From assembly GCA_017439585.1 (NCBI GenBank), contig JAFSIV010000020.1, forward strand, positions 19,787 to 83,786: a stretch of 64,000 nucleotides of DNA, in the 5' to 3' direction. Below the pieces are notes generated by a model. It searched no databases. It was given only the letters and a program-made list of their open reading frames with translations, and had not been told where the DNA came from. This DNA comes from Clostridia bacterium (GTDB taxonomy: Bacteria; Bacillota; Clostridia; Oscillospirales; Acutalibacteraceae). Shown piece by piece: positions 19,928 to 43,321 of the stretch. A program made the position numbers and the translations under genes. Numbering within the stretch: the stretch's first letter is position 1; every line of letters begins with the position of its first letter.

Positions 19928-21283
19928 ATGAAATGTTTTAAAACAAGCTCAGGATACGATGCTAAAATTGAATATATAGGTGGCGCTGAGGCAGAAGCTA
20001 AGCTTATGCGCGATAAGATATTAAACACGCAGAACACCGAGGATATTTATGAAATAAAGGGTAATAAGTATTACATAAATAAAAATATGACGGTTGACGA
20101 TATTCCCGCAGATTTAAAGCCGGGTGATGCGGTGCTTTTTGAACGCGGTGGATTATGGCGTATTCCTTGCAGAGAAAATGTTATAATTCCTGAGGGGGTT
20201 ATTTTCGGCTCTTACGGTAGTGGTGAGAAACCGAGATTTTATGGTTCGGCGGCTAATTTTGCGGGTGATCCTGATTGGGAAAAATTTAGCGAAAATATTT
20301 GGAAAAGGCATTTGCCAAACAGAAATGCCGGAATTATAGTTTTTGATGATAAATATGCTTTGGGTGATAAAAAATGGTCGCTTGAAGAAACAACCGCTAA
20401 CTATGATTTTTATTATGACGGTGAGCATGATGATATTTATGTTTATTATGATGGTGATTTGTTAAACGATTTCGAAAGCATCGAAATCGGTCAGCGCGGC
20501 GATATAATAACAATGAAATCGAATACCGTTTTAGATAATGTTTGTATTCGTTATGCCGCTTCGCACGGTGTTGCAACCGAGCATAATATGCATAATGTAA
20601 CCATAACTAATTGCGAGATAGGTTTTATCGGTGGCTCTTTGCAGTTTGATAGAGTGCGTTTTGGAAATGGTATAGAGATTAAGATGGGTGGGCAGGATAT
20701 AACCGTTAAAAATAACTGGGTTTATCAGTGCTATGATGCGGGTATAACCTTCCAAAGCTGGAATAACGGAAAAGAAAGCCGATATCACGATATTGATTTT
20801 TCTGAAAACCTTATTGAATATTGTTATTACGGATATGAATTTTTTACAACCTCTGCCGCAGGCGGCGGACCTTACAGCGAGTATAAAAATATAAATATAA
20901 GTGATAATATAATTCGTTTCTCAGGTTACGGCTGGGCGCACGAGCAAAGACCTGATAAATGGATGCTTTCTCATATCAGAGGCGGTCAATGGGCTTATAT
21001 GGATTATTGCGAGGGATTTAGAATATGCAATAATATATTTGATAGCGCTCGCGCTTATATTATCCATTGGTGGTGGCATGATGAAAATAAAAATGTTATT
21101 CACCCCGAGGCTCATGAGGGCTTAACCGTTTCAGAAAACACCTATTATCAAAAGCTTAGCGACGATAACCGTTGTCTTCTTTACCACCATAATGTGCCGC
21201 TTACAGCAAATGATGAAAATGAGTTGACCGAGGTTATAAAACGCTTCGATTCAAATCCTCGCAAAATAGTTTTAATGAAATAA
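19928..21283 (+). CDS. Right-handed beta-helix protein, predicted cytoplasmic
   Basis: 451 residues with no signal peptide or membrane segment; AAGG precedes the ATG at 19928. Pectate-lyase-like parallel beta-helix. It is clearly homologous to the lipoprotein at 41693 and to the last 420 residues of the protein at 25310: shared AVLFERGGLWR, YGSGEKPR, NCEIGFIGG, FGNGIE, VYQCYDAGIT, EQRPD and SHI. Invariant Asp, Arg and His in these stretches look catalytic, so a polysaccharide lyase or glycosidase acting on imported oligosaccharide is plausible, but the CAZy family is not recognisable to me. It is the first gene of the glycan locus and ends at a strong terminator. Confidence 0.75.
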   Translation: MKCFKTSSGYDAKIEYIGGAEAEAKLMRDKILNTQNTEDIYEIKGNKYYINKNMTVDDIPADLKPGDAVLFERGGLWRIPCRENVIIPEGVIFGSYGSGEKPRFYGSAANFAGDPDWEKFSENIWKRHLPNRNAGIIVFDDKYALGDKKWSLEETTANYDFYYDGEHDDIYVYYDGDLLNDFESIEIGQRGDIITMKSNTVLDNVCIRYAASHGVATEHNMHNVTITNCEIGFIGGSLQFDRVRFGNGIEIKMGGQDITVKNNWVYQCYDAGITFQSWNNGKESRYHDIDFSENLIEYCYYGYEFFTTSAAGGGPYSEYKNINISDNIIRFSGYGWAHEQRPDKWMLSHIRGGQWAYMDYCEGFRICNNIFDSARAYIIHWWWHDENKNVIHPEAHEGLTVSENTYYQKLSDDNRCLLYHHNVPLTANDENELTEVIKRFDSNPRKIVLMK

Positions 21284-21293
21284 AATTAATATT

Positions 21294-21331
21294 AAAAGGT
21301 CTCTTTGCTTTATATAGCAAAGAGACCTTTT
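21294..21331. terminator. Bidirectional terminator
   Basis: Sixteen-base-pair perfect stem AAAAGGTCTCTTTGCT/AGCAAAGAGACCTTTT between the convergent beta-helix and AraC genes; A/T runs at both feet allow use on either strand. Confidence 0.88.
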
Positions 21332-21344
21332 GTGCATATAAACC

Positions 21345-22217
21345 TTATTTCGCATCTTGAACAAACGAGCGGTATTTGTTTGGAGTGATACCGGTTTCTT
21401 CCTTGAAGCATTTGGTGAAATGACTCAAATTTGAGAATCCGCATTGAAGCGCGATTTGAGAAATATTCATTGAAGAATTTGAAAGATATTCAATCGATTT
21501 CTGAATACGAACACTATTCAAGTATTTGTTGAAATTGGTGTTAAATTCTTTTTTAAAAAGTCTGCTGAAATAACTGTAACTCATCGAAGCATTTTTTGCG
21601 GCCTTTTCGAGCGTTGCCGAGGCATAATGTTTATTAATGTATTTAACGGTATCTAAAAATACTGAATCCTTATCTTCAAAATTTAAATCTTGAATTTTAT
21701 CGGAATTTTTTTCAAATATGTATGCGCAAAGCTCTAAAACAGAAGCTTGAAGTATTAAACGCTTAGAAAAAATCTCGTTGGTGAAATTATCGTAACACCG
21801 TTTACATAGGCTTTGTATATATTCCGTATCCTCAAAATCCTTGTAAACTATAAACTCGTCCAGCAAAAAGAAAAAATAACTTGAATGGGGAAGAGGACGG
21901 TTCATTTTCAGTTCGATAATAGATGGGTCAAATTTAATATGATAACACTCACTGTTGCTAAGATATGAGTTTATACTGTGGGGGCAATTTGAATTTATAA
22001 ATATTAAATCATTCTCATTTAAAATAACTTCTCTTGAAACAAAAGAAATTTTCATTTTTCCTGAAATGCAATAAATAAGCTCAATGCTCTGGTGATAATG
22101 AGAAATAGGATTATGATTGTTAACCGACATTTCTCTGCGAGAAACTTCTATAAAAAAACTGGGATTTTCTTCATTGTTATCAAGTGAAATTGACTTGTTT
22201 TCTGCATCAACTATCAT
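21345..22217 (-). CDS. AraC-family transcriptional regulator of the glycan locus
   Basis: 290 residues from the ATG at 22217, seven bases after GGGAGG. The N-terminal half is a cupin sensor (HYHQSIELIYCISGKMKISF, then NENDLIFINSNCPHSINSY). The C-terminal 100 residues are two HTH motifs: LEKAAKNASMSYSYFSRLFKKEF and ISQIALQCGFSNLSHFTKCFKEE, followed by TGITPNKYR. It lies divergent to the permease/binding-protein genes at 22473, so it probably activates the locus when a released sugar binds the cupin. The TTGACA/TATTAT promoter is in the intergenic region. Confidence 0.9.
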   Translation of the reverse strand: MIVDAENKSISLDNNEENPSFFIEVSRREMSVNNHNPISHYHQSIELIYCISGKMKISFVSREVILNENDLIFINSNCPHSINSYLSNSECYHIKFDPSIIELKMNRPLPHSSYFFFLLDEFIVYKDFEDTEYIQSLCKRCYDNFTNEIFSKRLILQASVLELCAYIFEKNSDKIQDLNFEDKDSVFLDTVKYINKHYASATLEKAAKNASMSYSYFSRLFKKEFNTNFNKYLNSVRIQKSIEYLSNSSMNISQIALQCGFSNLSHFTKCFKEETGITPNKYRSFVQDAK

Positions 22218-22243
22218 GTTAATTACCTCCCGTTTTTTATAAT

Positions 22244-22272
22244 ATAATAAAATAAACAAATATAATTGTCAA
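22244..22272 (-). promoter_or_regulatory. Promoter of the AraC gene; intergenic 22218-22472
   Basis: Minus strand TTGACA, 17-nt spacer, TATTAT. On the + strand the only good -10 is TATAAT at 22373-22378, with no matching -35, as expected for an activator-dependent promoter. TGACA occurs twice nearby (22296 and 22315), a possible AraC half-site pair. Confidence 0.7.
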
Positions 22273-22472
22273 GAACTAAATTATGTATAATGATTTGACA
22301 GTTTTTTCACAAGATGACAAAAATATATTCAAATATAGCAAAAATTTAATATATATTTTTCATACTTTGTTATATAATATGCATAAACGATATAAGGATT
22401 ATTGTGATTTCTTTTATAAATTGTTAACAATAGTGCTAAAAATGAGTGTTTAGTGCATTTTAGGAGGCCATT

Positions 22473-23417
22473 ATGATTAATAAATATCGATTAAAGAGGA
22501 AAGCGGGGGACTATATGTTCTCAGCCGCCCGTTATTTGATTTTGATAGGTTTTGCCTATGTTTTGATTTATCCGTTTATTTTTATGGCGGTTAATAGTTT
22601 TAAAACATCAACCGACTGGCTAGACCCAACGGTGCAATGGATACCGAAAAGCGTATCTTTATTTAATATAAAGTATGCAGCTAAGGTTTTGGATTATTTT
22701 TCGTCTCTTTGGAGCACCTTATTAAATCAAATAATATCTGCGGTTATTTCCTTCTTTTCTTGCGCGGTTATCGCTTATGGTCTTTCAAGATTTGATTTTA
22801 AAGGAAAGAAAATCTTAATAGGTGTTATGATACTTCTCATATTAGTGCCTGACCCAATGCTTATGATAGCAAGCTATAATAATATGGACCATTTAGACTT
22901 TGTTGGAATACTTGGTTTGTTTAATAAGCTAACAGGAATAGATATCCGTCCTAGTGTTATAGATTCTCCATTTGTATTCTGGCTTCCTGCTCTTACAGGA
23001 ACAGGTCTTAAAAACGGACTATACATATATATATTTATGCAGTTCTTTAAAGGTCTCCCAAAAGAACTCGAAGAAGCCTCTTGGATAGACGGTGCTGGTC
23101 CTTGGAAAACATTTTTCAGAATTGTAATGCCTTCCGCGGGCGCTGCATCGGTTACAGTTTTGGTTTTCTCGGTTGTATGGTATTTTAATGATTACTATCA
23201 GGCAGATATCTTCTTCTCAGAGAAATTTCCACTGAGCGTTATGCTCTCAACCTTTACCAGTAGATTAAGCAGTATTGTTTCGCAAGATTTAAAATTCTCA
23301 ATAGGAGCTCTTATTTTGGCGGCTTCATTTATAACAATACTTCCCCTTTTGGCATACTTCTTGGTTATGCAGAGAAAATTCGTTCAAAGTATTGCAACCT
23401 GCGGCATCGTTGGATAG
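22473..23417 (+). CDS. Carbohydrate ABC permease, MalG type (no adjacent MalF partner)
   Basis: 314 residues, about six membrane helices; AGGAGG precedes the ATG. The cytoplasmic EAA loop reads LEEASWIDGAGPWKTFFRIVMP, which contacts the transport ATPase. It is in the MalG-like class (C-terminal permease of a heterodimer) and is followed by a solute-binding protein, but no MalF-type gene is beside it. The unpaired MalF-type permease at 40763 is the likely partner. It is the first gene read divergently from the AraC regulator. Confidence 0.9.
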   Translation: MINKYRLKRKAGDYMFSAARYLILIGFAYVLIYPFIFMAVNSFKTSTDWLDPTVQWIPKSVSLFNIKYAAKVLDYFSSLWSTLLNQIISAVISFFSCAVIAYGLSRFDFKGKKILIGVMILLILVPDPMLMIASYNNMDHLDFVGILGLFNKLTGIDIRPSVIDSPFVFWLPALTGTGLKNGLYIYIFMQFFKGLPKELEEASWIDGAGPWKTFFRIVMPSAGAASVTVLVFSVVWYFNDYYQADIFFSEKFPLSVMLSTFTSRLSSIVSQDLKFSIGALILAASFITILPLLAYFLVMQRKFVQSIATCGIVG

Positions 23418-23461
23418 CAATATTTAAAATAATAAAAAATAATTTTAAAGGAGAAAAAATT

Positions 23462-24850
23462 ATGAAAAATTTCAAGCGTATCCTTTGCTTGCTTCTTGCA
23501 ATGGCATTAGTATTTGCTTTTGTTGGATGCGGCGAAAAGGAAACAACTAGCACAGTTGATGACGACTGGGCAATTGAAGTTGAAGGCGGCGAGGTTCAAG
23601 GCGATAGCCAAGCAACCAGCGGCTCAAACAGTGGCAGCGGAAATCAATTAACCGCTAAACCCACCAAAGATGCTGACTCTCTTTCTTGGAAAGAGCTTTT
23701 AGCTCAAATGCCTTCTAACTTGCGTGGTTCAACCATTAAGGTTGCATCTTGGAACCCTATTAAAGATGTTACCGGTGCTCAGAAGGTTATCGATAGCTTC
23801 ACTAAGGAAACCGGTATTAAGGTTGCTTGGGAAGAAATTGACTATGAAAACTATGAAACCACTATCGCAGCTTATATCAATGCAGGCAAGTCTCCTGATG
23901 TTATCCGTTATCAGCATAGTACTGCTGCTAAAATGTCGGTTGCTCAGGATTTAAAAACTGCAACAGGCTATGATTTCAGCGGCGATATCTGGGATAAATC
24001 CACCCGCGATGCTTTCACTGTTAAGGGCAAGGTTTATGGTATTAACCTTAAAAACACCTTTAATATGCAGCCTCAGGTTATGTTTTATAGTGCTAAAAAC
24101 ATTAAGAACAATAATATGGAAGACCCATATCAGCTTTGGAAACAAGGCAAATGGACCTATAATAAGTTCAAGGAAATGTGCTTGCAGTATCTTGAAAAGA
24201 GCGGAAGCACTGCTGCTTGGATGACCTCTTATCATTTGGATTACTTGAACTGGCAAGGCTTAGACCTCGTTACTTTCGACGGTAAACAGTATAAGAGCAA
24301 CCTTTCTAATCCTAAGATTGTTACTGCTATTCAAGAAGCATGCAACAATGTTCAGAGCTCTATTGCAGCAACAACCATGCGTGAGCATGATAAACTCGAA
24401 AATAATACATACTTATTCTTCTCGGGTAACATTATTGCCGCAAGAAGAACCGACTTCCATTTCACAACAATTAAATCCGAAGGCAACTTGCGTTGCGTTC
24501 CGCTTCCGACCATTCAGGGCGTAACTAACTATGTTCCTATGCATGAGTCTGAGGCATACGGTATTCCTAAGGGTGCTAAGAACCCTGCTGCTGTTTACTA
24601 TTATCTCCGTTATTATCTAAACGCAGATAACTATGATGCAAAAATGTTCTTTGCTGATGAGCAGATATTAGAAACTTATAACTGGTGTATGGCTCAAAAG
24701 AATAAGTTCCATTATACCGGTAACACCTTTAATATGTCTGACTATATCCGTTCAGGAACTGCAGCTCAGGTTAAAACTCAGTTAGATAAAATTGCTCCAA
24801 CCGTTAACGCTTATGTTAAGAACGCTAACTCAACAATTGCTAAATTCTAA
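23462..24850 (+). CDS. Extracellular sugar-binding lipoprotein (family 1)
   Basis: 462 residues: signal with lipobox FVGC (Cys23), a low-complexity Ser/Gly/acidic spacer (residues about 28-72), then a family 1 solute-binding domain starting at IKVASWNPIKD with SFTKETGIKVAWEEIDYENYE and later YGIPKGAKNPAAVYYYLRYY. It captures an oligosaccharide at the cell surface for the ABC importer. It lies 45 bp after the MalG-type permease in the same transcript. Codon use is rich in GGC/GAA, consistent with high expression. Ligand unknown. Confidence 0.88.
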   Translation: MKNFKRILCLLLAMALVFAFVGCGEKETTSTVDDDWAIEVEGGEVQGDSQATSGSNSGSGNQLTAKPTKDADSLSWKELLAQMPSNLRGSTIKVASWNPIKDVTGAQKVIDSFTKETGIKVAWEEIDYENYETTIAAYINAGKSPDVIRYQHSTAAKMSVAQDLKTATGYDFSGDIWDKSTRDAFTVKGKVYGINLKNTFNMQPQVMFYSAKNIKNNNMEDPYQLWKQGKWTYNKFKEMCLQYLEKSGSTAAWMTSYHLDYLNWQGLDLVTFDGKQYKSNLSNPKIVTAIQEACNNVQSSIAATTMREHDKLENNTYLFFSGNIIAARRTDFHFTTIKSEGNLRCVPLPTIQGVTNYVPMHESEAYGIPKGAKNPAAVYYYLRYYLNADNYDAKMFFADEQILETYNWCMAQKNKFHYTGNTFNMSDYIRSGTAAQVKTQLDKIAPTVNAYVKNANSTIAKF

Positions 24851-24883
24851 ATGCAAAAGGCGAAATGCAAAATGCATAATGCG
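24850..24883. repeat. AAATGC heptamer-like repeats
   Basis: Right after the binding-protein stop: AATGCAAAAGGCGAAATGCAA and AATGCATAATGCGAAA, irregular copies of AAATGCA. Similar strings at 31574-31610 and 31674-31703. Confidence 0.5.
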
Positions 24884-24897
24884 AAACCAAATTGAAG

Positions 24898-24959
24898 TTT
24901 TGTAGGGTAGGCATTTATGCCTACCGCAAACGGAACGGATAAATCCGTTCCCTACAAAA
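24898..24959. repeat. Twin-palindrome intergenic element, copy 2
   Basis: Ten-base terminal inverted repeats TTTTGTAGGG/CCCTACAAAA flank two perfect palindromes: GGTAGGCAT/ATGCCTACC (24906-24925) and GGAACGGAT/ATCCGTTCC (24932-24951). Same architecture as the element at 3854-3919. It may terminate the upstream transcript; mobility is suggested by the inverted ends but no target duplication is evident. Confidence 0.75.
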
Positions 24960-31573: not shown

Positions 31574-31703
31574 ATGCAAAATGCAATATGCAAAATGCAA
31601 AGTGCAAAATTATATTAGATTTTAAAAAGTTGATAAATGAGAATTTATCTGCTGTTTAAAGTCCAATATTTGAAATGTGAAATGCAAAGTGCAAAATGCA
31701 AAA
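31574..31703. repeat. GCAAAAT heptamer clusters
   Basis: Two clusters of near-heptamers: about five units (AAATGCAAAATGCAATATGC...) at 31574-31610 and about four at 31674-31703 (GAAATGCAAAGTGCAAAATGC). They bracket about 65 bp with no gene. The second abuts the leader of the binding protein at 31735. Confidence 0.65.
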
Positions 31704-31734
31704 TATAATTCCAAGAAAGGAAATGGTAATTATT

Positions 31735-34560
31735 ATGATGAGGAATAAGGTTTGTAGACTTGTATCATTGGTATTAGCTTTAAGTATGCTATTAGGTCTC
31801 GGCTGCTATGCCGCTGAGGGTGATAGTGTTACTTCTGAGGCAGAAACTAATATTGATACAATTACTTCTGCTGAGGATATAAGTCCCACCGCGTATGCTT
31901 CTTACATATCAAAGGTGGACAACACTTTGGCTTCAAAGGATATCGAGTTTGATACCAATTTTAAGGTTACAAGCAATCCTACCAAATTAGAGGTAGAGGT
32001 TGCCCAAGCAGGTTTATATACCTTAGGTTTTTCTTATCTTGCAACTGATAAGGCTAACAGTGAATTGACCTTTTCTTTGAAAATAGACGGTAAGCTTCCT
32101 TTTGATGAGGCTGAAAAGTTTAATTTATTAAGAATTTATGAGAATGACGGTAAAGTTCGTGTTGACGGTCTCGGCAACCAATTTGCTCCAACTCAGATTC
32201 CAACAAAAGAATATTATTTTGATATTTTAACCGATATTACCGATTGGACTAATGACCCTTATATGTTCTATCTCACCGCCGGCAAGCATGAGTTTGAATT
32301 TACCGGTCTTTACGGTGAGTTTGATGTTAAAAAGATGATTTTAGGCGGAGAAAAGCAGGTTGAATCTTATAAAAAGCCTAGCGGAGATTTTTATAAGGGC
32401 AAGCCTATTATTATCGAGGGTGAGGACGCAAAGCTTAAAACTAGCTATTGGTTAGCAGGCAAAAGCGATAACTCAACCGTTGATATAACTCCTAACGACC
32501 CCTACAATACATTGGTTAACTATATTGGTGGCGGTAACTGGTCCAAAAACGGCGACACATTAACTTGGGAAACCCCCGAAATGAAAGCCGGATATTATAA
32601 TATCGGTTTTATTTATCGCCAAAGCACAATTATCGGTGCTAAGGTTTACAGAAGCTTAAAAATCGACGGCGAGTCTCCCTTTAAAGAGGCAGATGAGCTC
32701 GGCTTCGCTTATACATATTCTTGGAAAGAAACAACCTTCGCAGACCATAAAGATAATCCTTATTATGTTTATTTCTCAGAAGGCAAGCATACTATCTCTT
32801 TAAGCGTTATCCCAGGCGAGATTGACGGTGTTCGCAACAGTTTAAAGCAAGCAGTTTCCGATATCGGCGACCTTTATATTGATATAACAATGATAACCGG
32901 TGAATCGGTTGATACATACCGCGATTACGATTTATTCTCTCAAATTTCCGATATGGAGGAGAGACTTAAAAAAATCCGCAAAACCTTAAATGATTGCAGC
33001 AAAGAGCTTCAAGAGATAACAGGTGAGAAGAGCGGTTCTTATATCTCTATTATCGACAATATGCGACAAGTTTTGGAGTTAATGCTCGATAACAAGTATA
33101 CCGCCCACCGCTATAAATCAAATTATTACTCAAAATACACCTCTTTGGCATCTGTTCTTTTTGAAATGAACTCTATGCCGCTTGATATTGATAAAATTTC
33201 GCTTTATGCAAAAGACGATAAGCCCTTTGAAAAGGCCAATATGTTTGAAAAGGCTATATATTCTATCGAAAGATTTTTCGTTTCCTTTGTAAACGATTAT
33301 AACAATATCTCGGTTGCAGATGGAAACAGCGACGAAAGTGTTACTATTTGGGTTAACTGGGGACGCGACCAAGCGCAAGTTCTAAACTCTCTTATTCAAA
33401 CCTCGTTTACTCCCAAAGAAAAAATTTCGGTTAATGTTCAGCTTGTTAACGCATCAATCGTTCAGGCAATTCTTTCAGGAAAAGGACCCGACTGTTTGCT
33501 TCAACATTCAAGAAGCGAACCGGTTAACCTTGCAATGCGTGGAGTGCTTTATGATATGACAAAGTTCTCCGATTATAAGGATGTTTTGAAAGATTTCGGT
33601 GTTGACGCCGCATTACCTTATTACTATAAGGGCGGTTTATACGGTATTCCTGATACTCAGTCCTTCTACCTATTATATTATAGAAAAGACATATTAGAAG
33701 AAATGGATATTGACATTTCAAATGTTAACGAATGGACTTGGGATTATTTTGAGGAGGTTGTAAGTCTTCTTGCAACCAATAACCTAACCGCTTGGCTTCC
33801 TAACAACACTGCAACAAGTGTTGGACAGGCAAATGCAGGTATAGGAAGTATCAATATTTTCCCAACACTTATGTTGCAAAATGGTGTTGATATTTACAGG
33901 GAAGACGGCAGAAGCACTAATTTATCCTCTGCTGATACTGCTGCGGTATTCAAAGAGTGGACCGATTATTATACCAAGCTCAGAATGCCTAGAACAATGG
34001 ATTTCTATAACCGTTTCAGAACAGGTTCTTGTCCGGTTGGTATTTCAACTCATACTATGTATACCACATTAAAGGCAGCCGCTCCCGAAATCGAAGGTTT
34101 ATGGAGTGTAGCTCTTGTTCCGGGTACTGTTCAAGAGGATGGCTCGGTAAGCCATATTTCCTCAGGCGGCGGAACAGCTTGTTCTATTATGCAAAACACC
34201 AAAAACCCCGAAGCTTCATGGAAGTTTATTAAATGGTGGGTTTCGGCTGAAACACAGCTTGCTTATTCAAACGAAATCGAAACAATCTTAGGACCTACCG
34301 GTCGTGTTTCGGTATCTAATACAGAGGCTTTCAATGCTCTCGAATGGGATATGGATATGAAGGATACCATTTCTACCGCTTTCAGTCAGATTAGAGAAGT
34401 TCCTGAATATCCGGGTAGTTATTATGTTTCTCGTTCTGTATATCAAAGCTATTGGAATGTTGTTGAAAACAACCAGAGTTCAAAGGAAATGCTTTTGAAA
34501 TACAGCGAAGAAGCAAATGTTGAAATTGAACGCAAATGGCTTCAGTATGAAAACAGATAA
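31735..34560 (+). CDS. Sugar-binding protein fused to an N-terminal tandem binding region
   Basis: About 941 residues. Start is ATG at 31735 or 31738; AAAGGA lies at 31717, rather distant, and earlier ATGs are too close to it. The signal peptide (about 1-30) has a weak lipobox (LGLGC). About 60-210 and 225-390 are two homologous beta-sandwich units (AGLYTLGFSYLATD; AGYYNIGFIYRQST, each followed by LKIDG and PF.EA). A coiled, helical segment at about 395-520 (DMEERLKKIRKTLNDCSKELQE) leads to a family 1 solute-binding domain from about 535 (ESVTIWVNWGRDQ, GIPDTQSFYLLYYRKDIL). The permease pair at 34596/35537 follows, so this is its receptor. Confidence 0.82.
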   Translation: MMRNKVCRLVSLVLALSMLLGLGCYAAEGDSVTSEAETNIDTITSAEDISPTAYASYISKVDNTLASKDIEFDTNFKVTSNPTKLEVEVAQAGLYTLGFSYLATDKANSELTFSLKIDGKLPFDEAEKFNLLRIYENDGKVRVDGLGNQFAPTQIPTKEYYFDILTDITDWTNDPYMFYLTAGKHEFEFTGLYGEFDVKKMILGGEKQVESYKKPSGDFYKGKPIIIEGEDAKLKTSYWLAGKSDNSTVDITPNDPYNTLVNYIGGGNWSKNGDTLTWETPEMKAGYYNIGFIYRQSTIIGAKVYRSLKIDGESPFKEADELGFAYTYSWKETTFADHKDNPYYVYFSEGKHTISLSVIPGEIDGVRNSLKQAVSDIGDLYIDITMITGESVDTYRDYDLFSQISDMEERLKKIRKTLNDCSKELQEITGEKSGSYISIIDNMRQVLELMLDNKYTAHRYKSNYYSKYTSLASVLFEMNSMPLDIDKISLYAKDDKPFEKANMFEKAIYSIERFFVSFVNDYNNISVADGNSDESVTIWVNWGRDQAQVLNSLIQTSFTPKEKISVNVQLVNASIVQAILSGKGPDCLLQHSRSEPVNLAMRGVLYDMTKFSDYKDVLKDFGVDAALPYYYKGGLYGIPDTQSFYLLYYRKDILEEMDIDISNVNEWTWDYFEEVVSLLATNNLTAWLPNNTATSVGQANAGIGSINIFPTLMLQNGVDIYREDGRSTNLSSADTAAVFKEWTDYYTKLRMPRTMDFYNRFRTGSCPVGISTHTMYTTLKAAAPEIEGLWSVALVPGTVQEDGSVSHISSGGGTACSIMQNTKNPEASWKFIKWWVSAETQLAYSNEIETILGPTGRVSVSNTEAFNALEWDMDMKDTISTAFSQIREVPEYPGSYYVSRSVYQSYWNVVENNQSSKEMLLKYSEEANVEIERKWLQYENR

Positions 34561-34595
34561 TAAACTTACTTTGTATATGAAATTGTGGTGAATTT

Positions 34596-35519: not shown

Positions 35520-35536
35520 AAGGGGAGGAAAAATAA

Positions 35537-36397
35537 ATGGCAAAAAAAGCGCAGTATAGGCGTTATACACGTTCAACAGCAGGAAATATTGCTTATTTTT
35601 CATTACTTTTCCTTGCCGGAGCGTTCACGATTTTACCTTTGATTTATTGTGTTATCACATCTTTTAAACCGCTTGACGAGCTATTAATATTCCCACCCAG
35701 ATTCTTTGTTAGACGTCCAACTCTTTCAAATTATCTCGAATTACCCTCTTTGTTAGGTAAAATTCAGGTTCCTGTTTCAAGATATTTCTTTAACAGTATA
35801 TTTATAGCTGTTGCGGGTACAGGTCTTCATATTATTGCAGCCTCTCTTGCAGCATTTGCTTTTTCAAAGTCAAGAATGAAGAGTTGGAGTATTTTATTCT
35901 TGATTATTCAAATAATGTTGCTTTATAACAGTGTTACTTTAAGTGTTCCCCAATACTTGATTTTCACAAAGCTTCGAATGGTAGATACATATTGGGTATA
36001 TATTTTACCTGCAATTCCATCGGCGGTTGGTTGCTTCCTTATGAAGCAGTTTATTGATGTTTCGGTTCCTGATGCACTCTTGGAAGCCGCAAGAATAGAC
36101 GGTGCAGGCGTTATAAGAATGTATTATAAGATTGTTATGCCAATCTTAAAACCGGCTTGGATGACAATTATGCTTTTGTCTTTCCAAACTATGTGGACTG
36201 TAATACCCAGCGGAACAATTTTTAGCGAGCAGTTAAAAACCTTACCGCAGGTTATGAGTTCGATTTCAGCAGGTGGTATTGCCCGTTCAGGTAGTGCGAT
36301 GGCAATAACCGTAATTTTGATGATACCTCCGATTCTTGTTTTTATGGTTACTCAAAGTAACGTTATGGAAACAATGAGTACATCGGGTATTAAGTAG
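35537..36397 (+). CDS. Carbohydrate ABC permease, MalG type
   Basis: 286 residues, six helices, strong GGGGAGG before the ATG. EAA loop LEAARIDGAGVIRMYYKIVMP, and the C-terminal SNVMETMSTSGIK tail usual for MalG-like subunits. It pairs with the MalF-type gene just upstream. Confidence 0.92.
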   Translation: MAKKAQYRRYTRSTAGNIAYFSLLFLAGAFTILPLIYCVITSFKPLDELLIFPPRFFVRRPTLSNYLELPSLLGKIQVPVSRYFFNSIFIAVAGTGLHIIAASLAAFAFSKSRMKSWSILFLIIQIMLLYNSVTLSVPQYLIFTKLRMVDTYWVYILPAIPSAVGCFLMKQFIDVSVPDALLEAARIDGAGVIRMYYKIVMPILKPAWMTIMLLSFQTMWTVIPSGTIFSEQLKTLPQVMSSISAGGIARSGSAMAITVILMIPPILVFMVTQSNVMETMSTSGIK

Positions 36398-36407
36398 TTG
36401 ATTCCAT

Positions 36408-38549
36408 ATGGAAGGATTGTGGAATGGTTTGAAAAAAATAGTTTCAATTTTACTTGTTATCTTAGTTATATTTTCGCTAGGGGTTACTGTATCAGCTAAC
36501 CCCACAGATTCTTTCGTTCATGAGGATACTGAGTCCGGTGGGGTTGAATCTGTGTTATCGCAGGAAATGTATCATGCAACAAAGGTTATCTCTGCCGGTT
36601 CTTTAGGACTTGAAAAGAGCTTATCAGGTATGACCGATTTTTGCACCGATAAGGATGGCAACGTTTATGTTTTGGTATCCAACTGGTCGCAAATAGTTGT
36701 TTTAAATAAAGATTATTCGCTTAATCGCGTTTTAAAGCTAACTGATGAAACCGGAAGCTCGATGTTTTTCACCGGTGCACAGGGAATTTTTGTTGATAAA
36801 GACAATAAGATTTATGTTTGCGATACAAACAGTTCAAGAATTTTGATTGCGGATACAAACGGTGTTGTTATTGATACCTGGGGAGCACCCGAATCAGATT
36901 TAATTCCTGAGGATTTCTTTTATCAGCCTTGCAGAATTGTAAGAAATGATAAGGGTTATACATATATTTTAAGCTTAGGTTGTTATTACGGTGCCTTGCT
37001 TTATTCGCCCGACCATAAGTTTTTAGGCTTTTACGGTGCTAACAATGTTGAAGCTACCGCATTAGATACTCTTTCATATTTATGGGAGCGTTTAACCCAA
37101 ACCGAAGAGAAGAAATCTCTCTCGGTTAAAACCCTGCCTTATTCTTTTGTTGATTTATGCTTAGATTCTGAGGACTTTATGCTTACTTGTACCGGTAAAA
37201 CCGAAGAGGATGTAAACGGTACGGGACAAATTCGCAAGCTTTCTCCCACCGGCGAAAACATTATGTTTAAACGCCAAACAAACGGTGAATCTTTATCTGC
37301 TAATAGTATAAACTTCCTTGAAGAAAAGGTTACTGTGAGCTATGGTAAGAAGCGAACTCAAAATATCGTTTCAATAGATGTTGATGAAGATGACTTTATT
37401 TATGCTTTGGATTCGCAAAAAGGCTTCATTTATATTTATGACGATGAATGTAATATGATATGTGGTTTCGGAGGCGGTGGCGACCGTTCAAAGAGACTTA
37501 GTGTTTTTGATAATGCATCTGCTCTAGCTGTTTGCGGAACTGATATTTTAGTTGCTGACATGGATTCACAGACTATTACTGTATTTGAGCTTACCGAATA
37601 TGGTAGTCTTTTGAAAAAAGCTCAATGTATTTATTTAGACGGTGAATATTTAGAGGCTAAACCTCTTTGGGAAGAGGTAAACCGTAGAAATAAGAACTGT
37701 CAGTTAGCATATAGAGGTTTGGCAATCGCTTATTTAAGTGAAGGCGATTATGAAAACGCATTAGAGTGTGCCAGACTCGGCCTTGATTATACTGTTTATG
37801 ATTTGGCTTGGAAAGTAATCAAAAATGAGTTTATGCTTGATAATTTCTTATGGATATTTATTATAGCAGTTGCTTTAATCGGCGGTTTGGTTGCATTCCT
37901 CATTATTAAAAAGCGTAAAAATTTGGTTCTTATTAAAAATGCTTATGTTAAAACGGCGCTTTCCTCAACAATTCACCCATTTAAAGCATTTGAAGAAATC
38001 AAATATAAACAAATGGGCTCTGTTTTAATAGGTAGTGTTATATTATTCCTTTATTATATAGCAAATGTATTGAAAGAAACCGGTTCAGGCTTCCTTGCTA
38101 CCACGGTTGATATAAATAAATACAATACAATTTATACCGTAATAGAGACCATAGGTATTGTTTTGCTTTGGTCGGTTTGTAACTGGCTTATAACCTCTTC
38201 GTTTGACGGAAAAGGTAATTTCAAAGAGGTATTTATTGCAACAACATATTCTTTAATACCGTTAACATTGTTTACATTTATTAGAGTTATTCTTTCTCAT
38301 ATGGTATCTATGTCGGGACTTAAAATAGTTGATGCTGTTGGAATAGTTGTTCTTATATTAACCTTCTTCTTGTTATGTATTGCAATTATGGCGGTTCACG
38401 AATACGACTTCTTTAAGTTCCTTTCAACTTCAATCGTTACAGTATTATTTATGATTCTTGTGGCTTTCGTTATTTTTGTTGTTGGCATATTATTGCAACA
38501 GGTTGGCGAATTCTTCACTTCAATTTTCACAGAAATTTTTTACAGATAG
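36408..38549 (+). CDS. Beta-propeller/TPR/Yip1-domain membrane protein
   Basis: 713 residues. Signal or first membrane helix about 10-30 (the ATG at 36408 has no clear ribosome binding site, so the start could lie slightly downstream). About 60-410 are NHL-like blades (FVDKDNKIYVCDTNSSRILI, DEDDFIYALDSQKGFIYIYD). About 410-470 is a TPR-like helical pair (CQLAYRGLAIAYLSEGDYENALECA). A membrane helix follows at about 480-503, then a Yip1-type domain with four or five helices (HPFKAFEEIKYKQMGSVLIGSV). The extracellular propeller joined to a membrane domain suggests surface organisation of the importer; function not established. Between permeases and a DUF5696 gene, a combination I recall from other Firmicutes sugar loci. 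Confidence 0.75.
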   Translation: MEGLWNGLKKIVSILLVILVIFSLGVTVSANPTDSFVHEDTESGGVESVLSQEMYHATKVISAGSLGLEKSLSGMTDFCTDKDGNVYVLVSNWSQIVVLNKDYSLNRVLKLTDETGSSMFFTGAQGIFVDKDNKIYVCDTNSSRILIADTNGVVIDTWGAPESDLIPEDFFYQPCRIVRNDKGYTYILSLGCYYGALLYSPDHKFLGFYGANNVEATALDTLSYLWERLTQTEEKKSLSVKTLPYSFVDLCLDSEDFMLTCTGKTEEDVNGTGQIRKLSPTGENIMFKRQTNGESLSANSINFLEEKVTVSYGKKRTQNIVSIDVDEDDFIYALDSQKGFIYIYDDECNMICGFGGGGDRSKRLSVFDNASALAVCGTDILVADMDSQTITVFELTEYGSLLKKAQCIYLDGEYLEAKPLWEEVNRRNKNCQLAYRGLAIAYLSEGDYENALECARLGLDYTVYDLAWKVIKNEFMLDNFLWIFIIAVALIGGLVAFLIIKKRKNLVLIKNAYVKTALSSTIHPFKAFEEIKYKQMGSVLIGSVILFLYYIANVLKETGSGFLATTVDINKYNTIYTVIETIGIVLLWSVCNWLITSSFDGKGNFKEVFIATTYSLIPLTLFTFIRVILSHMVSMSGLKIVDAVGIVVLILTFFLLCIAIMAVHEYDFFKFLSTSIVTVLFMILVAFVIFVVGILLQQVGEFFTSIFTEIFYR

Positions 38550-38567
38550 TTTAGGAGGATGAGAATA

Positions 38568-40763
38568 ATGAAATTTAGAAAAATATGTTCAGTATTATCC
38601 GCCCTCCTAATAACAGTATCTGTTTTATCAGGCTGTGGTTCAAAGAATAATACAGGAGTAAAGTATAACAAAAATCCTGAAATTAATAGCCTTTCTTCCA
38701 AAACTATCGCTGAAAATGATAATTTAAAGTTGGATTATTTGGATGATTTGAAGGGAATAACCGTAACCGATAAGATTACCGGTAAAGTTTGGTCTAATCT
38801 TGATAAAGATGAGGCAGGCAATTTTGTTGTTTCTTCTACATTAGATATAAATGTTCAGGATATGGAGTTTTACAAAAGCGAAGGTACTTCAAGCGATACT
38901 CTTGTTGAACAAAACAAGATAAATGTTAAAGAAATTGATAATGGATTAGAGTTTACATATTATTTTGATGAATACGGTATTTCTATTCCGGTTTCTTATA
39001 CACTTGTAAAAGATTCTTTAAAAATTTCGATAAATGGTTCGAAAATTGCAGAATCAAAAGAAAAATACAGATTGGTTTCGGTAACTCCGTCTTCTCGTTT
39101 TTGTACTGTAAAAGACGGTTCGGATGAAAACTATATTTTCTTACCTATCGGCAACGGAGCTGTTTCAATAGCTAACGATTCACCTGATGGCACTAAGTCA
39201 TACGATATTGGTCCTGATAACTATGTAGCTATCAATCCTTTCTCAAACGTTAATTTGCCCAGTACCGCAAGAATGCCTGTTTATGGCGTTAAAGACGGTA
39301 ATAGTGCTGTTTTCTGTATAGCAGAGGAGACTCCGGGTTCGGTTGGTATTATATCATCTGCCGGAAGCGGCGATTCTGATTATTCAAGTGTTAAGCCAAA
39401 TATTTTCTTGGTTGACTATGACTATACGTTTGGAAAAGCCGAAAATTCCCCCGAGGTAAGACACCTTTCTGAACGCACACAGGATGTTATAACAATTGGT
39501 TGCTATTTCTTGCAAAATGAAAAAGCAAATTATATGGGTATGGCAGAGTGTTTCAGAAACTATTTGCAGAAAAATGAATTTTTAGAGACTTCTGAATTTA
39601 AAAATTCTCCTTATTCGGTAAATATCTTGGGCGGCGTTTTATCAACAACATCAATTTTAGGTATTCCGGTTAAAACTGTTAAGACTTTAACAACAATTAA
39701 TCGTGCCAAGGATATGATTGATGAATTGTCCAAACTAACATCATATAACCCAACGGTTTGTTTATCAGGCTTTGGAGAATCAGGAATTAATGCAGGTGAG
39801 ATTGCCGGCGGATTTGAAATCAATTCAAAACTAGGGGATAAAAAAGATATAGCCAGCATAGAAAAATATGCTGCTAAAAATGGTATTTCGCTTTTTACCG
39901 ATTTTGAAATGACAAAATTTAGCGAATCGGGAAGCGGTTTCTCCTATAAAAAGGATTCGGCAAAAACTGCAATGATTCATACTGCAGATAAGAGCGGATA
40001 TACAGTTCCGCTTCGCGAAGCTAGCGCTAATGATACCTATCGTGTTCTTTCAAGAGGTAAACAGGGTAAGGTTGTTGAAAAATTAATAAAGAAAACCGAT
40101 AAATTAGGAATATCTGCTGTTAATTTCTCAACTCTCGGCTCGGTTACTTATTCTGATTATAATAAAAATGACCTTTATTCGCTTTCAAGCAGAACCGAAA
40201 GTGATGTTAAGAAGTATATTAAAGAGTTTAATAAGAGTGGTAAAAAGGTAAGCGGAAAGGCTGCGGCTTATTTTGCATCAGGCCTTATGGACGCAGTTTT
40301 TGACGTTGATGTTATAGGCGACGGTCATTATTCCTTTGATTATCATGTGCCATTCTATCAGATGGTATTTTCGGATGTTACACCGCTTTATACAACCGCT
40401 TTAAATATCTCATCAAATCCTGAGGAATTGATGGCTTATGCGGCATCCTCGGGTGTTGGTATTAATTTTACCTTGATAGATCAATTTGATATTACCTATA
40501 TGGAAACAAATAAGGAAAAGCTTTATGCTTGCGATTATGAAGGCAATAAAGACCGCATTAAGTCTTATGTTGCAAAGTTCGCAGAAGTATATGAAGCTAC
40601 AAGTGGTTCCAGAATAGTTAACTATGAGATAGCTGATAATGGCGTTACTGTTACAACCTTTGAAAACGGTAGTGTGGTTTATGCAAATCATTCCTCTAAG
40701 AGTGTTGATTCAGCTGTCGGCGCATTAAAGGGCTATGAGTTTAAGTTAGGGGGCGAGAAGTAA
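38568..40763 (+). CDS. DUF5696-type lipoprotein
   Basis: 731 residues from the ATG at 38568 (GGAGG nine bases before; the ATG at 38559 is too close). Lipobox VLSGC. Early residues LKLDYLDDLKGITVTDKITGKVWSN, then a beta-rich domain and a TIM-barrel-like C-terminal half (about 350-680; DTYRVLSRGKQGKVV, DGHYSFDYHVPFYQMVFSDVTPLYT). I assign DUF5696, a family found beside Yip1-domain proteins and sugar importers. Possibly a surface glycosidase of a clan-A/D fold; the catalytic residues are not identifiable here. Its stop overlaps the next permease start by one base. Confidence 0.72.
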   Translation: MKFRKICSVLSALLITVSVLSGCGSKNNTGVKYNKNPEINSLSSKTIAENDNLKLDYLDDLKGITVTDKITGKVWSNLDKDEAGNFVVSSTLDINVQDMEFYKSEGTSSDTLVEQNKINVKEIDNGLEFTYYFDEYGISIPVSYTLVKDSLKISINGSKIAESKEKYRLVSVTPSSRFCTVKDGSDENYIFLPIGNGAVSIANDSPDGTKSYDIGPDNYVAINPFSNVNLPSTARMPVYGVKDGNSAVFCIAEETPGSVGIISSAGSGDSDYSSVKPNIFLVDYDYTFGKAENSPEVRHLSERTQDVITIGCYFLQNEKANYMGMAECFRNYLQKNEFLETSEFKNSPYSVNILGGVLSTTSILGIPVKTVKTLTTINRAKDMIDELSKLTSYNPTVCLSGFGESGINAGEIAGGFEINSKLGDKKDIASIEKYAAKNGISLFTDFEMTKFSESGSGFSYKKDSAKTAMIHTADKSGYTVPLREASANDTYRVLSRGKQGKVVEKLIKKTDKLGISAVNFSTLGSVTYSDYNKNDLYSLSSRTESDVKKYIKEFNKSGKKVSGKAAAYFASGLMDAVFDVDVIGDGHYSFDYHVPFYQMVFSDVTPLYTTALNISSNPEELMAYAASSGVGINFTLIDQFDITYMETNKEKLYACDYEGNKDRIKSYVAKFAEVYEATSGSRIVNYEIADNGVTVTTFENGSVVYANHSSKSVDSAVGALKGYEFKLGGEK

Positions 40764-41653
40764 TGAAGCAAAAAAAAGCAAAGGGAATTGAATCTCTAAG
40801 ACGAAGATACGGTTATTCTTTTGTAGCTCATTGGATTATAGGTTTGATTACTTTCTTCTTCATCCCCTTGATTTTTTCAATCTGGTATTCTTTTAGTGAT
40901 GTATCACTTGGTGACTCTGGATTTATATTAGACTTTATAGGCTTTGAAAACTATAAAGTAGCATTAATGGAAGACCCTGAATATTTAGACATGGTTAGAG
41001 ACTCTATCGGTTCAATGTTTTATTCATTGCCGATGATAGTATCTTTAAGTCTTATTTTGGCGGTGCTTTTAAATCAAAAGTATTATGGCAGAACGATAAT
41101 GCGTATTATCTTCTTCTTACCTGTTATAATTGAATCTTCGGTTATAGTTCGTTTGCTTTCCGACCCGTCAATCAATGCTCCTATTTTCAATTTTAGCACT
41201 GAGGGTCAAGGTTTTGTTAATTATGATTTGATATTTGCTAATCTTAATTTACCTCCGCAAATTACCGAATTTTTAACCTTCTTCTTATCTAATACCGTTT
41301 CTCTTACTTGGGGCTGCGGTGTGCAAATTATTCTTTTCCTTGCAGGACTTCAAGGAATTCCTGATTCCTTATATGAGGTTTCTAAGATAGAAGGAGCTAA
41401 TAAATGGGATGAATTCTGGAGAATAACTGTTCCAATGCTAAGACATGTATTGTTGCTCGTTATTATCTATACAATGATTTCTCAATTTACAAATTCTAAC
41501 AACAAGGTTCTTAGTACTTCACTTGGATTAATGAAGGATATGCAATATGATATGGCGGCTGCAATGCTATGGTTCTATTTTGTAATCGTTTTGGCGGTTA
41601 TAGGTTTAGTATTGGTGCTTTATAATCGTTATTGCTTAAAGAAGTGGGATTAG
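40763..41653 (+). CDS. Sugar ABC permease, MalF type (no adjacent MalG partner)
   Basis: 296 residues, six helices; start overlaps the DUF5696 stop (TAATG), so the two are translationally coupled. EAA loop YEVSKIEGANKWDEFWRITVP. No MalG-type gene or binding protein is adjacent; the lone MalG-type permease and binding protein at 22473/23462 would complete it. The variant EAA (EVSKIEG instead of EAAxxDG) is mild. Confidence 0.88.
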   Translation: MKQKKAKGIESLRRRYGYSFVAHWIIGLITFFFIPLIFSIWYSFSDVSLGDSGFILDFIGFENYKVALMEDPEYLDMVRDSIGSMFYSLPMIVSLSLILAVLLNQKYYGRTIMRIIFFLPVIIESSVIVRLLSDPSINAPIFNFSTEGQGFVNYDLIFANLNLPPQITEFLTFFLSNTVSLTWGCGVQIILFLAGLQGIPDSLYEVSKIEGANKWDEFWRITVPMLRHVLLLVIIYTMISQFTNSNNKVLSTSLGLMKDMQYDMAAAMLWFYFVIVLAVIGLVLVLYNRYCLKKWD

Positions 41654-41692
41654 AGGATACTCTTAACTATAAAAATTTAAAGGAGTGTAACC

Positions 41693-43321
41693 ATGAAAAA
41701 AATTATAGCGTTAATTTTAGCTCTATTATTGCTTATCTTTTGCTGCGGTTGTAAAGATAAAGAAGAAACTGTTAGTAAAAAACCTACTAAAAGTGAAACA
41801 ACCCAAACCGACGAAAGCAATGATGCTGCAAGTGATGAATATTGCTTAGCGGTTGTTGATACTACTTATCCATTCAATGAATGGATGGAGGAAGAAGAGG
41901 AAGTAGAGGAAGAAAAGGGTTATGTGATTGAAAAGATCGTAAAAACTCTTGATACTAAGTGGTATGGAGGAAATACGGCTCTTAAATCAAGTAAATCCGA
42001 TAAAGAGGCTACTGCTCTTCGAAACAGCATTTTAAATGCTAAAAATACCGATGTTTCTAAGATAAAAGGAACAGTTTTCTATGTTTCTCCAAAAGGAAAC
42101 AATCAAAATGACGGTAGATCACCCGCAACCGCTGTTCGAGATACGAATGCTGATATTTTCAGAATGGGCGATGTAATGTCAGGCGATGCGGTTTTATTTG
42201 AACGTGGGGGCTTATGGCGCTTAACCTCTACATTTAATTGTGAAGAAGGCGTAACCTACGGTTCTTATGGAACAGGATATAAGCCAATGTTATATGCTTC
42301 TCCGCAAAACTTTGCTGACCCATCTGTTTGGATTCCAAGTAATTTAAAGAATGTTTGGAAATTAACCGTTGCTGATACTGATATCGGTATGGTTGCTTTC
42401 AATTATGGTGAATTAGTAGGTGTTAAGAAGCTTAACGGCTTAGTTTCTTTGGAAACGAACGGAGACTATTATTACAATAAAGGCGAGGATACCCTTTATG
42501 TCTATTGTGATAAGGGTAATCCCGGAAGGATTTATGAAAATATCGAGGTTGGTTTGAGATTCCCGATTATCACAGCAGGTTACCCGGGTATAGTTATTGA
42601 TAACCTTTGCCTTAAATATACAGGAACCTTCGGTATTTATATGTATAATGGTAGTAACACAGTTATTTCTAACTGCGAGATAGGCTTTATTGGCGGTGCT
42701 ATTCAAAGCGGCACTTTGAGATACGGCAACGGAATACAGTCTTGGAACGGCGCTGAAAATCAGTTAGTTGAGAACAACTGGATTTATCAGGTATATGATG
42801 CCGGTATTACATGGCAGGGTGATTACAGTTATCTACCTGAGTATGGCGATATTTATAAGAATATCACTTATAGAAACAATTTAATGGAATATTGCACTTA
42901 TTCATTTGAGTGGTGGCATTCTAATAATGGTGCTTCATATAGTTCTCCTGCAACAGTTCAAAATTTCAGATTATTAAATAATATTAGCCGTTTTGCAGGT
43001 TTTGGTCAGGGTGCTCAGCGTCCCGACTTCTCAGGATGTCATATTATGGGCTTCCAGCATCAGTTCCCAACAGCAAAAGGCAATGAAATTTCAGGAAACA
43101 TTTTTGATAGATGTGCCGATAAAATGGTTGACTGGAGAATTCAGTCTGCCGCAAATAACGGTGAATGGAATATCAGAAACAATACATGGTATCAATCAAA
43201 AGCTAAGACAAATACTGTTTTAGTATATGGTGGTTGGGAAAGCGCAACTAATCAGGATTCGCTTGCAAATGCTGTAAAAGTTTTTGATAAAAATCCTGCA
43301 AAGGTTGAATGGATTTCATAA
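41693..43321 (+). CDS. Surface lipoprotein of the shared beta-helix family
   Basis: 542 residues; GGAG before the ATG. Lipobox with adjacent cysteines (IFCCGC), then a Lys/Thr/Glu-rich spacer including an acidic EEEEEVEEE run (about 67-75). From about residue 130 the beta-helix domain shared with 19928 and the C-terminus of 25310: AVLFERGGLWR, YGSYGTGYKP, NCEIGFIGG, RYGNGIQ, IYQVYDAGITW, QRPDFSGCHI. It ends with DKNPAKVEW like its paralogues. Likely a cell-surface counterpart acting before import. No recognised CAZy family. Confidence 0.78.
   Translation: MKKIIALILALLLLIFCCGCKDKEETVSKKPTKSETTQTDESNDAASDEYCLAVVDTTYPFNEWMEEEEEVEEEKGYVIEKIVKTLDTKWYGGNTALKSSKSDKEATALRNSILNAKNTDVSKIKGTVFYVSPKGNNQNDGRSPATAVRDTNADIFRMGDVMSGDAVLFERGGLWRLTSTFNCEEGVTYGSYGTGYKPMLYASPQNFADPSVWIPSNLKNVWKLTVADTDIGMVAFNYGELVGVKKLNGLVSLETNGDYYYNKGEDTLYVYCDKGNPGRIYENIEVGLRFPIITAGYPGIVIDNLCLKYTGTFGIYMYNGSNTVISNCEIGFIGGAIQSGTLRYGNGIQSWNGAENQLVENNWIYQVYDAGITWQGDYSYLPEYGDIYKNITYRNNLMEYCTYSFEWWHSNNGASYSSPATVQNFRLLNNISRFAGFGQGAQRPDFSGCHIMGFQHQFPTAKGNEISGNIFDRCADKMVDWRIQSAANNGEWNIRNNTWYQSKAKTNTVLVYGGWESATNQDSLANAVKVFDKNPAKVEWIS

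Follow-up and report, generated by a model that had tools for sequence, protein, structure and literature searches.

The locus examined here encodes one protein domain three times, in proteins predicted to be cytoplasmic, secreted, and lipoprotein, respectively, and it raises the question of what this domain does, whether it belongs to a known enzyme family, and whether its three forms act in sequence.

Three copies of one beta-helix domain

Within the window, the 64,000-nucleotide stretch of DNA that was analysed, a right-handed beta-helix domain roughly 420 residues long is present in P0001, P0002, and P0003, whose genes begin at positions 19928, 25310, and 41693 (Table 1). BLASTP comparison gave 37% identity over 456 columns for P0001 and P0003 (E 1e-75), 29% over 447 columns for P0001 and P0002 (E 2e-43), and 26% over 407 columns for P0002 and P0003 (E 8e-29), with P0002 matching its siblings through its C terminus, at about residues 1640 to 2052. 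No fourth copy was found in the assembly, which is 87% complete. In a phylogenetic tree, the window proteins fell into three separate clades (SH-aLRT 100, 99, and 100), and the compartment was largely fixed per clade. These data bear out the proposal of an earlier note on this DNA that one domain family occupies three predicted compartments. P0001, P0002, and P0003 are old paralogs from three lineages, and they may differ in specificity.

Table 1. Positions of the domain copies and neighboring genes in the window (loci are relative loci)
Feature	Position	Strand	Remarks
P0001, signal-less (predicted cytoplasmic) beta-helix protein	19928..21283	+	451 aa from ATG 19928
P0001 codons D286; Q292; E320	20735-20737; 20753-20755; 20837-20839		Residue numbering from ATG at 19880
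AraC-type regulator	21345..22259	-	Between signal-less gene and transporter genes
ABC permease	22473..23417	+	Homologs >30% identity in 20/77 loci
Solute-binding lipoprotein	23462..24850	+	Homologs >30% identity in 20/77 loci
P0002, secreted protein, 2052 aa	25310..31468	+	Signal-like N terminus (by eye)
Shared domain within P0002	30227..31465	+	Residues about 1640-2052; D1874, Q1880, E1906 present
954-aa protein: N-terminal half unassigned, solute-binding domain SBP_bac_8	31696..34560	+	10/77 loci
Two ABC permeases	34596-35519, 35537-36397	+	11/77 loci each
Membrane protein, NHL and Yip1 domains (TPR below cut-off)	36408..38549	+	11/77 loci
DUF5696 protein, lipoprotein-like N terminus (by eye)	38559..40763	+	12/77 loci
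ABC permease immediately 5' of lipoprotein gene	40763..41653	+	10/77 loci
P0003, predicted lipoprotein, 542 aa	41693..43321	+	Shared domain about residues 102-542; D369, Q375, E406 present
Surface protein, 1697 aa, three CBM_4_9 stretches	43360..48453	+	C-terminal membrane anchor by eye
Isomerase-like TIM barrel (48484), GH3 (49407), GH2 (51628)	48484..54471	+	Signal-less by eye

From its N to its C terminus, P0002 comprises the signal-like segment, long adhesin-like beta-helix repeats (Pectate_lyase_5), CBM_4_9, one weak dockerin-like loop, and the shared domain; P0003 opens with a hydrophobic stretch that has CCGC at its end. For P0001, an in-frame stop immediately 5' of 19880 limits any extension to at most 16 residues, which are not signal-like by our own signal rule. 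The start at 19928 was preferred to that at 19880 because several relatives (L025, L037, L038, and L046) start at the same place, opening with M(K/R)....NSSGYD.

Compartments of the relatives were predicted by rule or by eye. Among 126 classified members, 54 were signal-less and 72 exported, and 11 others were undecided; calls made by hand set L066|2476 and L006|11639 as exported, signal sequences having been seen, and L032 and L035|11313 as undecided. The tree required 19 compartment changes, compared to a mean of 36.8 (28 to 44) in 300 shuffles, so that the compartment switched at least 19 times. In the P0003 clade, 14 of 16 members were exported (one by hand, and with the window's own counted), the other two being cut by contig ends.

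Conserved residues and the candidate active site

Asp286, Gln292, Glu320, and Asn263 were each present in all 135 aligned sequences, a set that includes the three window copies, in family alignments with a mean column identity of 23 to 27%. Four invariant polar residues are consistent with the catalytic type of conservation that the earlier note had expected. The residues that it named, Asp, Arg, and His, fared unequally: Asp286 was invariant and Arg357 mostly kept (110/135), but His365 occurred in only 73/135, and we therefore rejected an Asp-Arg-His triad; the invariant Glu320 had been missed. The note's motif series was recovered in the three-way alignment; the terminal D.N...V.W lay outside the conserved columns. 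The strict invariants of the catalytic half were Asp, Gln, Glu, Asn, Cys, and Gly; no Lys or Arg was fully invariant there, and R94 and R260 were kept in about 95% of the sequences. The Asp/Gln/Glu trio was present in all three window copies.

The contig scan that yielded the first member set used peptide patterns at C245-G252 and just before D286, and conservation at these two places is therefore partly built in. A second set was assembled by a motif-free profile search of 245 genomes, with up to 30 loci examined from the 47 matches listed. This gave 28 matching ORFs, of which L150 was left out as too short; 4 of the 27 usable ones were already among the 135, leaving 23 new members. For L125, L140, L142, and L145, which have stops inside the match, the stop-free pieces alone were used. 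D286, E320, and N263 were each found in 20/23 of these members and Q292 in 19/23. In L137 to L139, all four residues were changed together, and these were the only motif-free members without D, E, or N; they may reflect poor alignment or a separate family.

In a rung register made by hand and judged by eye, T290 and E320 appear to form one outward column on adjacent rungs, and D286 and Q292 appear to share that face. The candidate site would be Asp286/Gln292/Glu320 plus Asn263 rather than Asp/Arg/His. On balance, we think that the shared domain is probably a catalytic right-handed beta-helix whose family is unclassified in the libraries searched. A glycoside hydrolase is the likeliest activity, with enzymes working both extracellularly and in the cytoplasm, on either side of the import of oligosaccharides.

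Relation to known beta-helix families

Against Pfam and NCBIfam, the three window copies matched no enzyme family above the cut-off. The generic Beta_helix family PF13229 matched P0001 at an E of 7e-6, just above the cut-off, and P0003 at 0.0016, below it, as well as 49/72 catalytic-half sequences at an E of ≤0.01; no Pfam model matched the shared domain of P0002 at an E of 0.1. Together with the PDB profile searches, these results uphold, for the libraries searched, the earlier note's view that the domain falls in no recognised family. Nor was a paper on the family found in the literature searched, in which some matches were represented by a title and the start of an abstract.

In the PDB, an hmmsearch with family alignment A2 matched the chains 7v6m (E 1.4e-20), 6kqs (4.4e-18), 5gqc (3.9e-16), and 7v6i (1.6e-15), the match being essentially confined to the N-terminal cap. 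6kqs, 5gqc, and 7v6i are chains named lacto-N-biosidase, which we take to be GH136; 7v6m can be added by similarity, and a homologous N-terminal cap and a beta-helix are common to these enzymes and the window family. The cap match is not exclusive to GH136, since the rhamnogalacturonan lyase 5olq was also reached, weakly (E 0.005). The catalytic half matched nothing convincingly; its best E of 0.007 came from rungs in chains labelled alpha-galactosidase with no family given (8yk1 to 8yk3, E 0.007 to 0.013), where only generic Asn-rich rungs aligned, and the GH110-labelled chain 7jwf gave an E of 0.9.

Many right-handed beta-helix enzymes are lyases, and the domain could be a polysaccharide lyase or sugar epimerase of the same fold that acts on uronic acid glycans. 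The 5olq match fits such an enzyme, and R94 and R260 could serve acidic sugars. However, the catalytic half holds no strictly invariant Lys or Arg, and the locus carries GH2, GH3, and a GH78-like gene, with no uronate pathway recognised among the 35 of 52 listed ORFs that were scanned. We therefore regard a lyase or epimerase as rather unlikely.

Also unlikely, and slightly more so, is that the domain is a distant member of GH136 or GH141 within reach of a curated dbCAN/CAZy model; the cap matches and the GH141 comparison given below speak for it. According to PMC7335108, lacto-N-biosidases are assigned to GH136, the catalytic pair is D568-x6-D575 (ErLnb136 numbering), GH136 proteins without a signal are known in Roseburia hominis, a precedent for the signal-less form, and versions with and without a signal occur in different species. 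The window family lacks this pair: at +7 from D286 an acidic residue occurs in about 1% of the sequences, and all 135 have Gln at +6. For this comparison, the pair site in 6kqs was counted by hand, and the strands were matched by their positions rather than through a proven alignment. The catalytic half scored 2% against one GH136-like protein in profile-profile comparison and was not alignable. GH136 enzymes have a helical GH136I domain in cis or in trans; the 451-aa P0001 holds little beyond the beta-helix and seems to leave no room for one. GH136 membership was rejected because the defining catalytic pair is lacking.

GH141, which includes the alpha-L-fucosidase BT1002 and the xylanase Xyn141E, shares the parallel beta-helix. 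Profile-profile comparison with ten GH141_M-containing proteins gave 99% for the whole domain and 96% for the catalytic half, with reversed controls at 0.1 to 0.2%; the match spans the cap and first rungs, and the local alignment ends before the assigned Asp motifs. The insertion domain GH141_M (PF21231) matched none of the three proteins in Pfam at an E of 0.1 and had no match in the assembly, and membership was rejected on that ground. The catalytic Asp pair of BT1002 is D523 and D564, according to PMC10154630 and PMC12786026. With the motifs assigned to this pair from spacing only, D.G.[IVL]Y occurred in 7/162 members versus 8/10 of the GH141_M set (one, L102, out of register) and G[IVL][YF].D in 8/162 versus 5/10. 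GH120 beta-xylosidases have a similar cap and type of beta-helix (80 to 84% for the whole domain), but the catalytic half scored 0.2%, and GH120 was rejected since its insertion domain, PF21258, had no match in the assembly.

A non-catalytic beta-helix with a structural or adhesive role, comparable to the Pectate_lyase_5 repeats found in this locus, is improbable: P0002 and the 43360 protein do bear such adhesin-like repeats and L137 to L139 lack all four candidate residues, but the polar residues are invariant across highly divergent members, and the 54 signal-less members are unlikely as surface adhesins.

The locus and a proposed pathway

A module of solute-binding fusion, permeases, Yip1, DUF5696, permeases, and solute-binding protein recurs beside family lipoproteins, and P0003 is part of this ABC-import module; L033, L036, L037, and L046 had fewer than four homologs of window genes in the flank examined. 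Neither the DUF5696 protein nor the N-terminal half of the 954-aa protein had a PDB sequence relative at an E of 1, and no paper on DUF5696 was found in the literature searched. The TIM barrel, GH3, and GH2 group is likely the cytoplasmic end of the pathway.

Under the glycoside hydrolase reading, we infer hydrolysis, residue roles, substrate, and order of steps as follows. Asp286 and Glu320 would be catalytic, with Gln292, Thr290, Asn263, and, in most members, Arg357 in the same pocket. Extracellular cleavage of a complex glycan would fall to the secreted and lipoprotein forms, and uptake of the resulting fragments to the locus's ABC importers. In the cytoplasm, the signal-less form would cleave the imported oligosaccharides, and GH3, GH2, and the sugar isomerase would complete the breakdown. 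A more specific version is put forward tentatively, as possible but doubtful: a new GH family with its own Asp286/Glu320 plus Gln292 site, the same chemistry outside, at the surface, and inside through three old paralogous lineages, large oligosaccharides imported and cut in the cytoplasm, and the NHL/Yip1 and DUF5696 proteins as dedicated importer parts.

Should the domain prove to be an enzyme, it would represent an uncharacterised CAZyme-like family, multiplied in some gut Clostridia and tied to a recurrent importer in which DUF5696 and Yip1 have no assigned function. In G022, a genome of about 1.4 Mb, as many as 12 pieces matched, although two or more of these belong to one gene. The family would also offer a natural comparison of a single candidate active site across three compartments, and the named residues make the enzyme reading directly testable.

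Neighboring genes did not point to a common substrate. From 244 candidate ORFs (cluster representatives located within 5 kb, with importer homologs left out), 199 were scanned; a size limit had removed 26, and another 19, many lying antisense to another gene, were set aside by hand. No activity dominated the 25 commonest Pfam families listed, which were led by AraC regulators, followed by dockerin, cupin, NMN transporter, GTPase, and others, with GH43 in 2. Searches of plasmids with P0001 and of phages with P0003 gave no match at 1e-10, and a promoter scan found 59 sites versus 56.5 in shuffles, no excess.

The earlier note had envisaged a cascade of shedding, surface trimming, and cytoplasmic finishing, which our data do not demonstrate. 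The signal-less gene lies outside the main operon and is separated from the next same-strand gene by 1,189 bases, and the three family genes are therefore not one operon; their products are, as noted, old paralogs. Among the 34 records that contained two or more classified members, the window being one of them and five locus pairs having been merged by contig, exported and signal-less forms were mixed in 23, compared to a shuffled mean of 22.5 (sd 2.6; 5000 shuffles; P 0.51). Co-location therefore gives no support for a cascade, and we rejected it as a conserved arrangement, since the mixing equals random assignment. In favor of the proposed pathway, some individual loci pair the two forms: a signal-less copy comes after the lipoprotein gene in four of them (L020, L022, L034, and L047) and before it in L053. 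In L038, a signal-less relative gene adjoins a GH3 gene.

A common domain in three predicted compartments

The earlier note had proposed that one beta-helix domain occurs in three predicted compartments, and both parts of this proposal were borne out. Pairwise BLASTP between the domain copies of P0001 (signal-less), P0002 (secreted, 2052 residues), and P0003 (lipoprotein) gave E values of 1e-75, 2e-43, and 8e-29, leaving no doubt that they are homologous, and a simple hydrophobic-stretch rule predicts the three compartments well. In their own assembly (1.49 Mb, 23 contigs, 87% complete), P0003 matched nothing beyond these three copies at E ≤ 0.001.

Genes in the window encoding the beta-helix family domain
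Protein	Position	Strand	Description
P0001	19928-21283	+	451 aa counted from the ATG common to relatives; second open ATG at 19880
P0002	25310-31468	+	Family domain at C-terminus
P0003	41693-43321	+	ORF with family domain

A search with P0003 at 1e-10 matched 32 of 99 close relatives, and a profile of 106 family sequences at 1e-20 matched 28 of 245 genomes of the order (own genome counted in both) and 1 of 299 of the phylum, namely the own genome. The 77 named relative loci, drawn from the best 80 of 91 matches, all belong to MAGs, nearly all titled Clostridia or narrower clostridial groups (the others, one Bacillota and one Kiritimatiellae), and many come from the gut of buffalo, goat, sheep, deer, yak, or horse.

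To assign compartments, we applied a simple rule to 137 members, of which 134 came from L004 to L080 and three from the window. Members with a hydrophobic stretch after a plausible start were called exported, and those whose open frame had no such stretch ahead of the domain were called signal-less; after four hand corrections, the rule yielded 72 exported, 54 signal-less, and 11 undecided members. In a tree of 123 domains computed quickly with IQ-TREE, with SH-aLRT as the only support measure, nine members of the P0001 clade (n = 12, support 100) were signal-less, the exceptions being membrane-anchored (L039), rated exported from a doubtful TTG start (L042), and undecided (L032). The P0002 clade (n = 10, support 99), which includes two near-identical pairs and is sister to the P0001 clade (support 97), contained exclusively large exported proteins, one set by hand, and the P0003 clade (n = 16, support 100) contained 14 exported members (one by hand) and 2 ended by contig ends. 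The tree required at least 19 compartment changes, versus 28 to 44 in 300 label shuffles (mean, 36.8). Together, the clade structure and the low number of changes show that the window proteins are paralogs that diverged long ago and whose compartments have stayed largely fixed; none is a recent copy of another.

One relative genome, G028, carries all three copies on a single 62,304-base contig, ordered as in the window and with a lipoprotein copy 80% identical; the order lipoprotein, secreted, signal-less copy was also found in L012 and L066. The three compartments had been read as a possible cascade of shedding, surface trimming, and cytoplasmic finishing. Exported and signal-less members occurred together in 23 of the 34 records that hold two or more classified members, versus 22.5 with shuffled labels, which speaks against joint deployment being conserved. 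Taken alone, the distribution of compartments lends a cascade no support. In L024, L035, L048, L062, and L068, three to five family genes stand in tandem, most of them signal-less.

Conserved residues and a candidate site

Residues are numbered from the P0001 ATG at 19880 (minus 16 for the shorter form). The first sample comprised 159 family ORFs on L001 to L099, 145 of them spanning most of the domain; after removal of repeats, 135 sequences were aligned, including the window's three (effective number, 120 at 80% identity). G113, P118, C245, G251, G252, G262, N263, D286, Q292, N310, and E320 were invariant. Because L004 to L080 had been retrieved through two peptide patterns overlapping C245-G252 and the stretch right before D286, a second sample was drawn by searching 245 genomes of the order with a profile, giving 27 usable members, of which 4 were shared with the first set and 23 were independent. 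D286, E320, and N263 were each kept in 20 of these 23, and Q292 and T290 each in 19. N263, D286, Q292, and E320 were all changed in L137, L138, and L139, a joint loss that is what one expects of a single functional site, if these three are not simply poorly aligned. In L145, whose frame is broken, Q292 and T290 are missing, and N263, D286, and E320 are kept. Of the conserved Asp, Arg, and His postulated earlier, Asp (D286) stands at 135/135, Arg (R357) is frequent (110/135 and, in the second sample, 20/23), and His (H365; 73/135 and 16/23) is kept less often.

Rungs were lined up by hand on Asn (N244, N279, N310, N343, N385, and N420), and in this register G264-I265-E266, G288-I289-T290-F291-Q292, and G318-Y319-E320-F321 may be the same strand in successive rungs. 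This would make T290 and E320 neighbors on the outer face, which D286 and Q292 would share.

L137 to L139 could form a subfamily of other function. The more divergent L140 to L149 keep D286 and E320, and Q292 in all except L145; Arg replaces the aromatic residue at E320 +2.

Relation to known beta-helix enzymes

In Pfam, P0001 matched the generic Beta_helix model barely over the cut-off, P0003 matched it under the cut-off, and the family domain of P0002 had no match; an NCBIfam scan of the domain gave none. At E ≤ 0.01, 49 of 72 catalytic-half sequences matched Beta_helix and 2 matched Pectate_lyase_4. In the PDB, the 106-sequence profile found lacto-N-biosidases through their N-terminal cap (6kqs, 4.4e-18; 5gqc, 3.9e-16; 7v6i, 1.6e-15), as well as 7v6m, labeled a fibronectin type III domain protein (1.4e-20), and, weakly, a rhamnogalacturonan lyase. 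The catalytic half alone (72 sequences) reached at best an E of 0.007, to a rung stretch of alpha-galactosidase chains. In profile-profile comparisons, it scored 96% with ten GH141_M-containing proteins, 2% with one GH136-like protein, and 0.2% with ten GH120 proteins (reversed controls, 0.1 to 0.2%). The cap match and these comparisons place the domain in a wide GH136/GH141-like beta-helix group, yet not visibly within any one of these families.

The GH136 catalytic pair is given as D568 and D575 of ErLnb136 in PMC7335108; in the 6kqs alignment these lie in D-S-M-A-W-D-A-D (positions counted by hand). D286 starts a similar strand, which lacks the second Asp in about 99% of the aligned sequences, and the candidate site appears unlike that of GH136. 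For GH141, PMC10154630 and PMC12786026 name D523 and D564 of BT1002; motifs that we assigned to them by spacing, beyond the end of the local alignment, are rare, occurring in 7 and 8 of 162 family members; the candidate site may or may not coincide with this one. Judged from sequence, the domain looks catalytic, and we somewhat favor a glycoside hydrolase. It would then hydrolyze a glycan substrate, whose products might be relayed from outside to inside the cell.

Genomic context

P0003 lies in a tight gene run from 31696 to 51554 (gaps of ≤39 bases) with an SBP fusion, two permeases, an NHL/Yip1 membrane protein, a DUF5696 protein, a further permease, a large CBM-bearing surface protein, a TIM-barrel isomerase-like protein, and a GH3. 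P0001 stands apart: 194 bases separate it from a preceding Clp-protease-like gene and 1,189 bases from the next gene on its strand. In L020, L022, L034, and L047, the lipoprotein gene is followed by a signal-less family member. Within loci reaching 10 kb or the contig end, homologs of >30% identity to permease 22473 and SBP 23462, both members of large families, occurred beside family genes in 20 of 77 relative loci, and those of DUF5696, the NHL/Yip1 protein, and the SBP fusion, the last likewise from a large family, in 12, 11, and 10.

The NHL/Yip1 (36408-38549) and DUF5696 (38559-40763) proteins both recur beside these ABC importers; DUF5696 occurred in no paper of the collection searched. 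The SBP fusion (31696-34560) has a long extra N-terminal half, in which inspection by eye shows a helical stretch and two similar ones (around residues 95-220 and 285-400); this half had nothing over the Pfam cut-off and no PDB relative. Between the P0001 and AraC genes lies an inverted repeat of 16 pairs (21294-21331), which the scan scored as resembling a minus-strand terminator. In P0002, a single dockerin-like calcium loop (~30083-30184; Dockerin_1 E of 0.031, under the cut-off) precedes the family domain, and the relative locus L013 has a longer dockerin-like stretch by eye.
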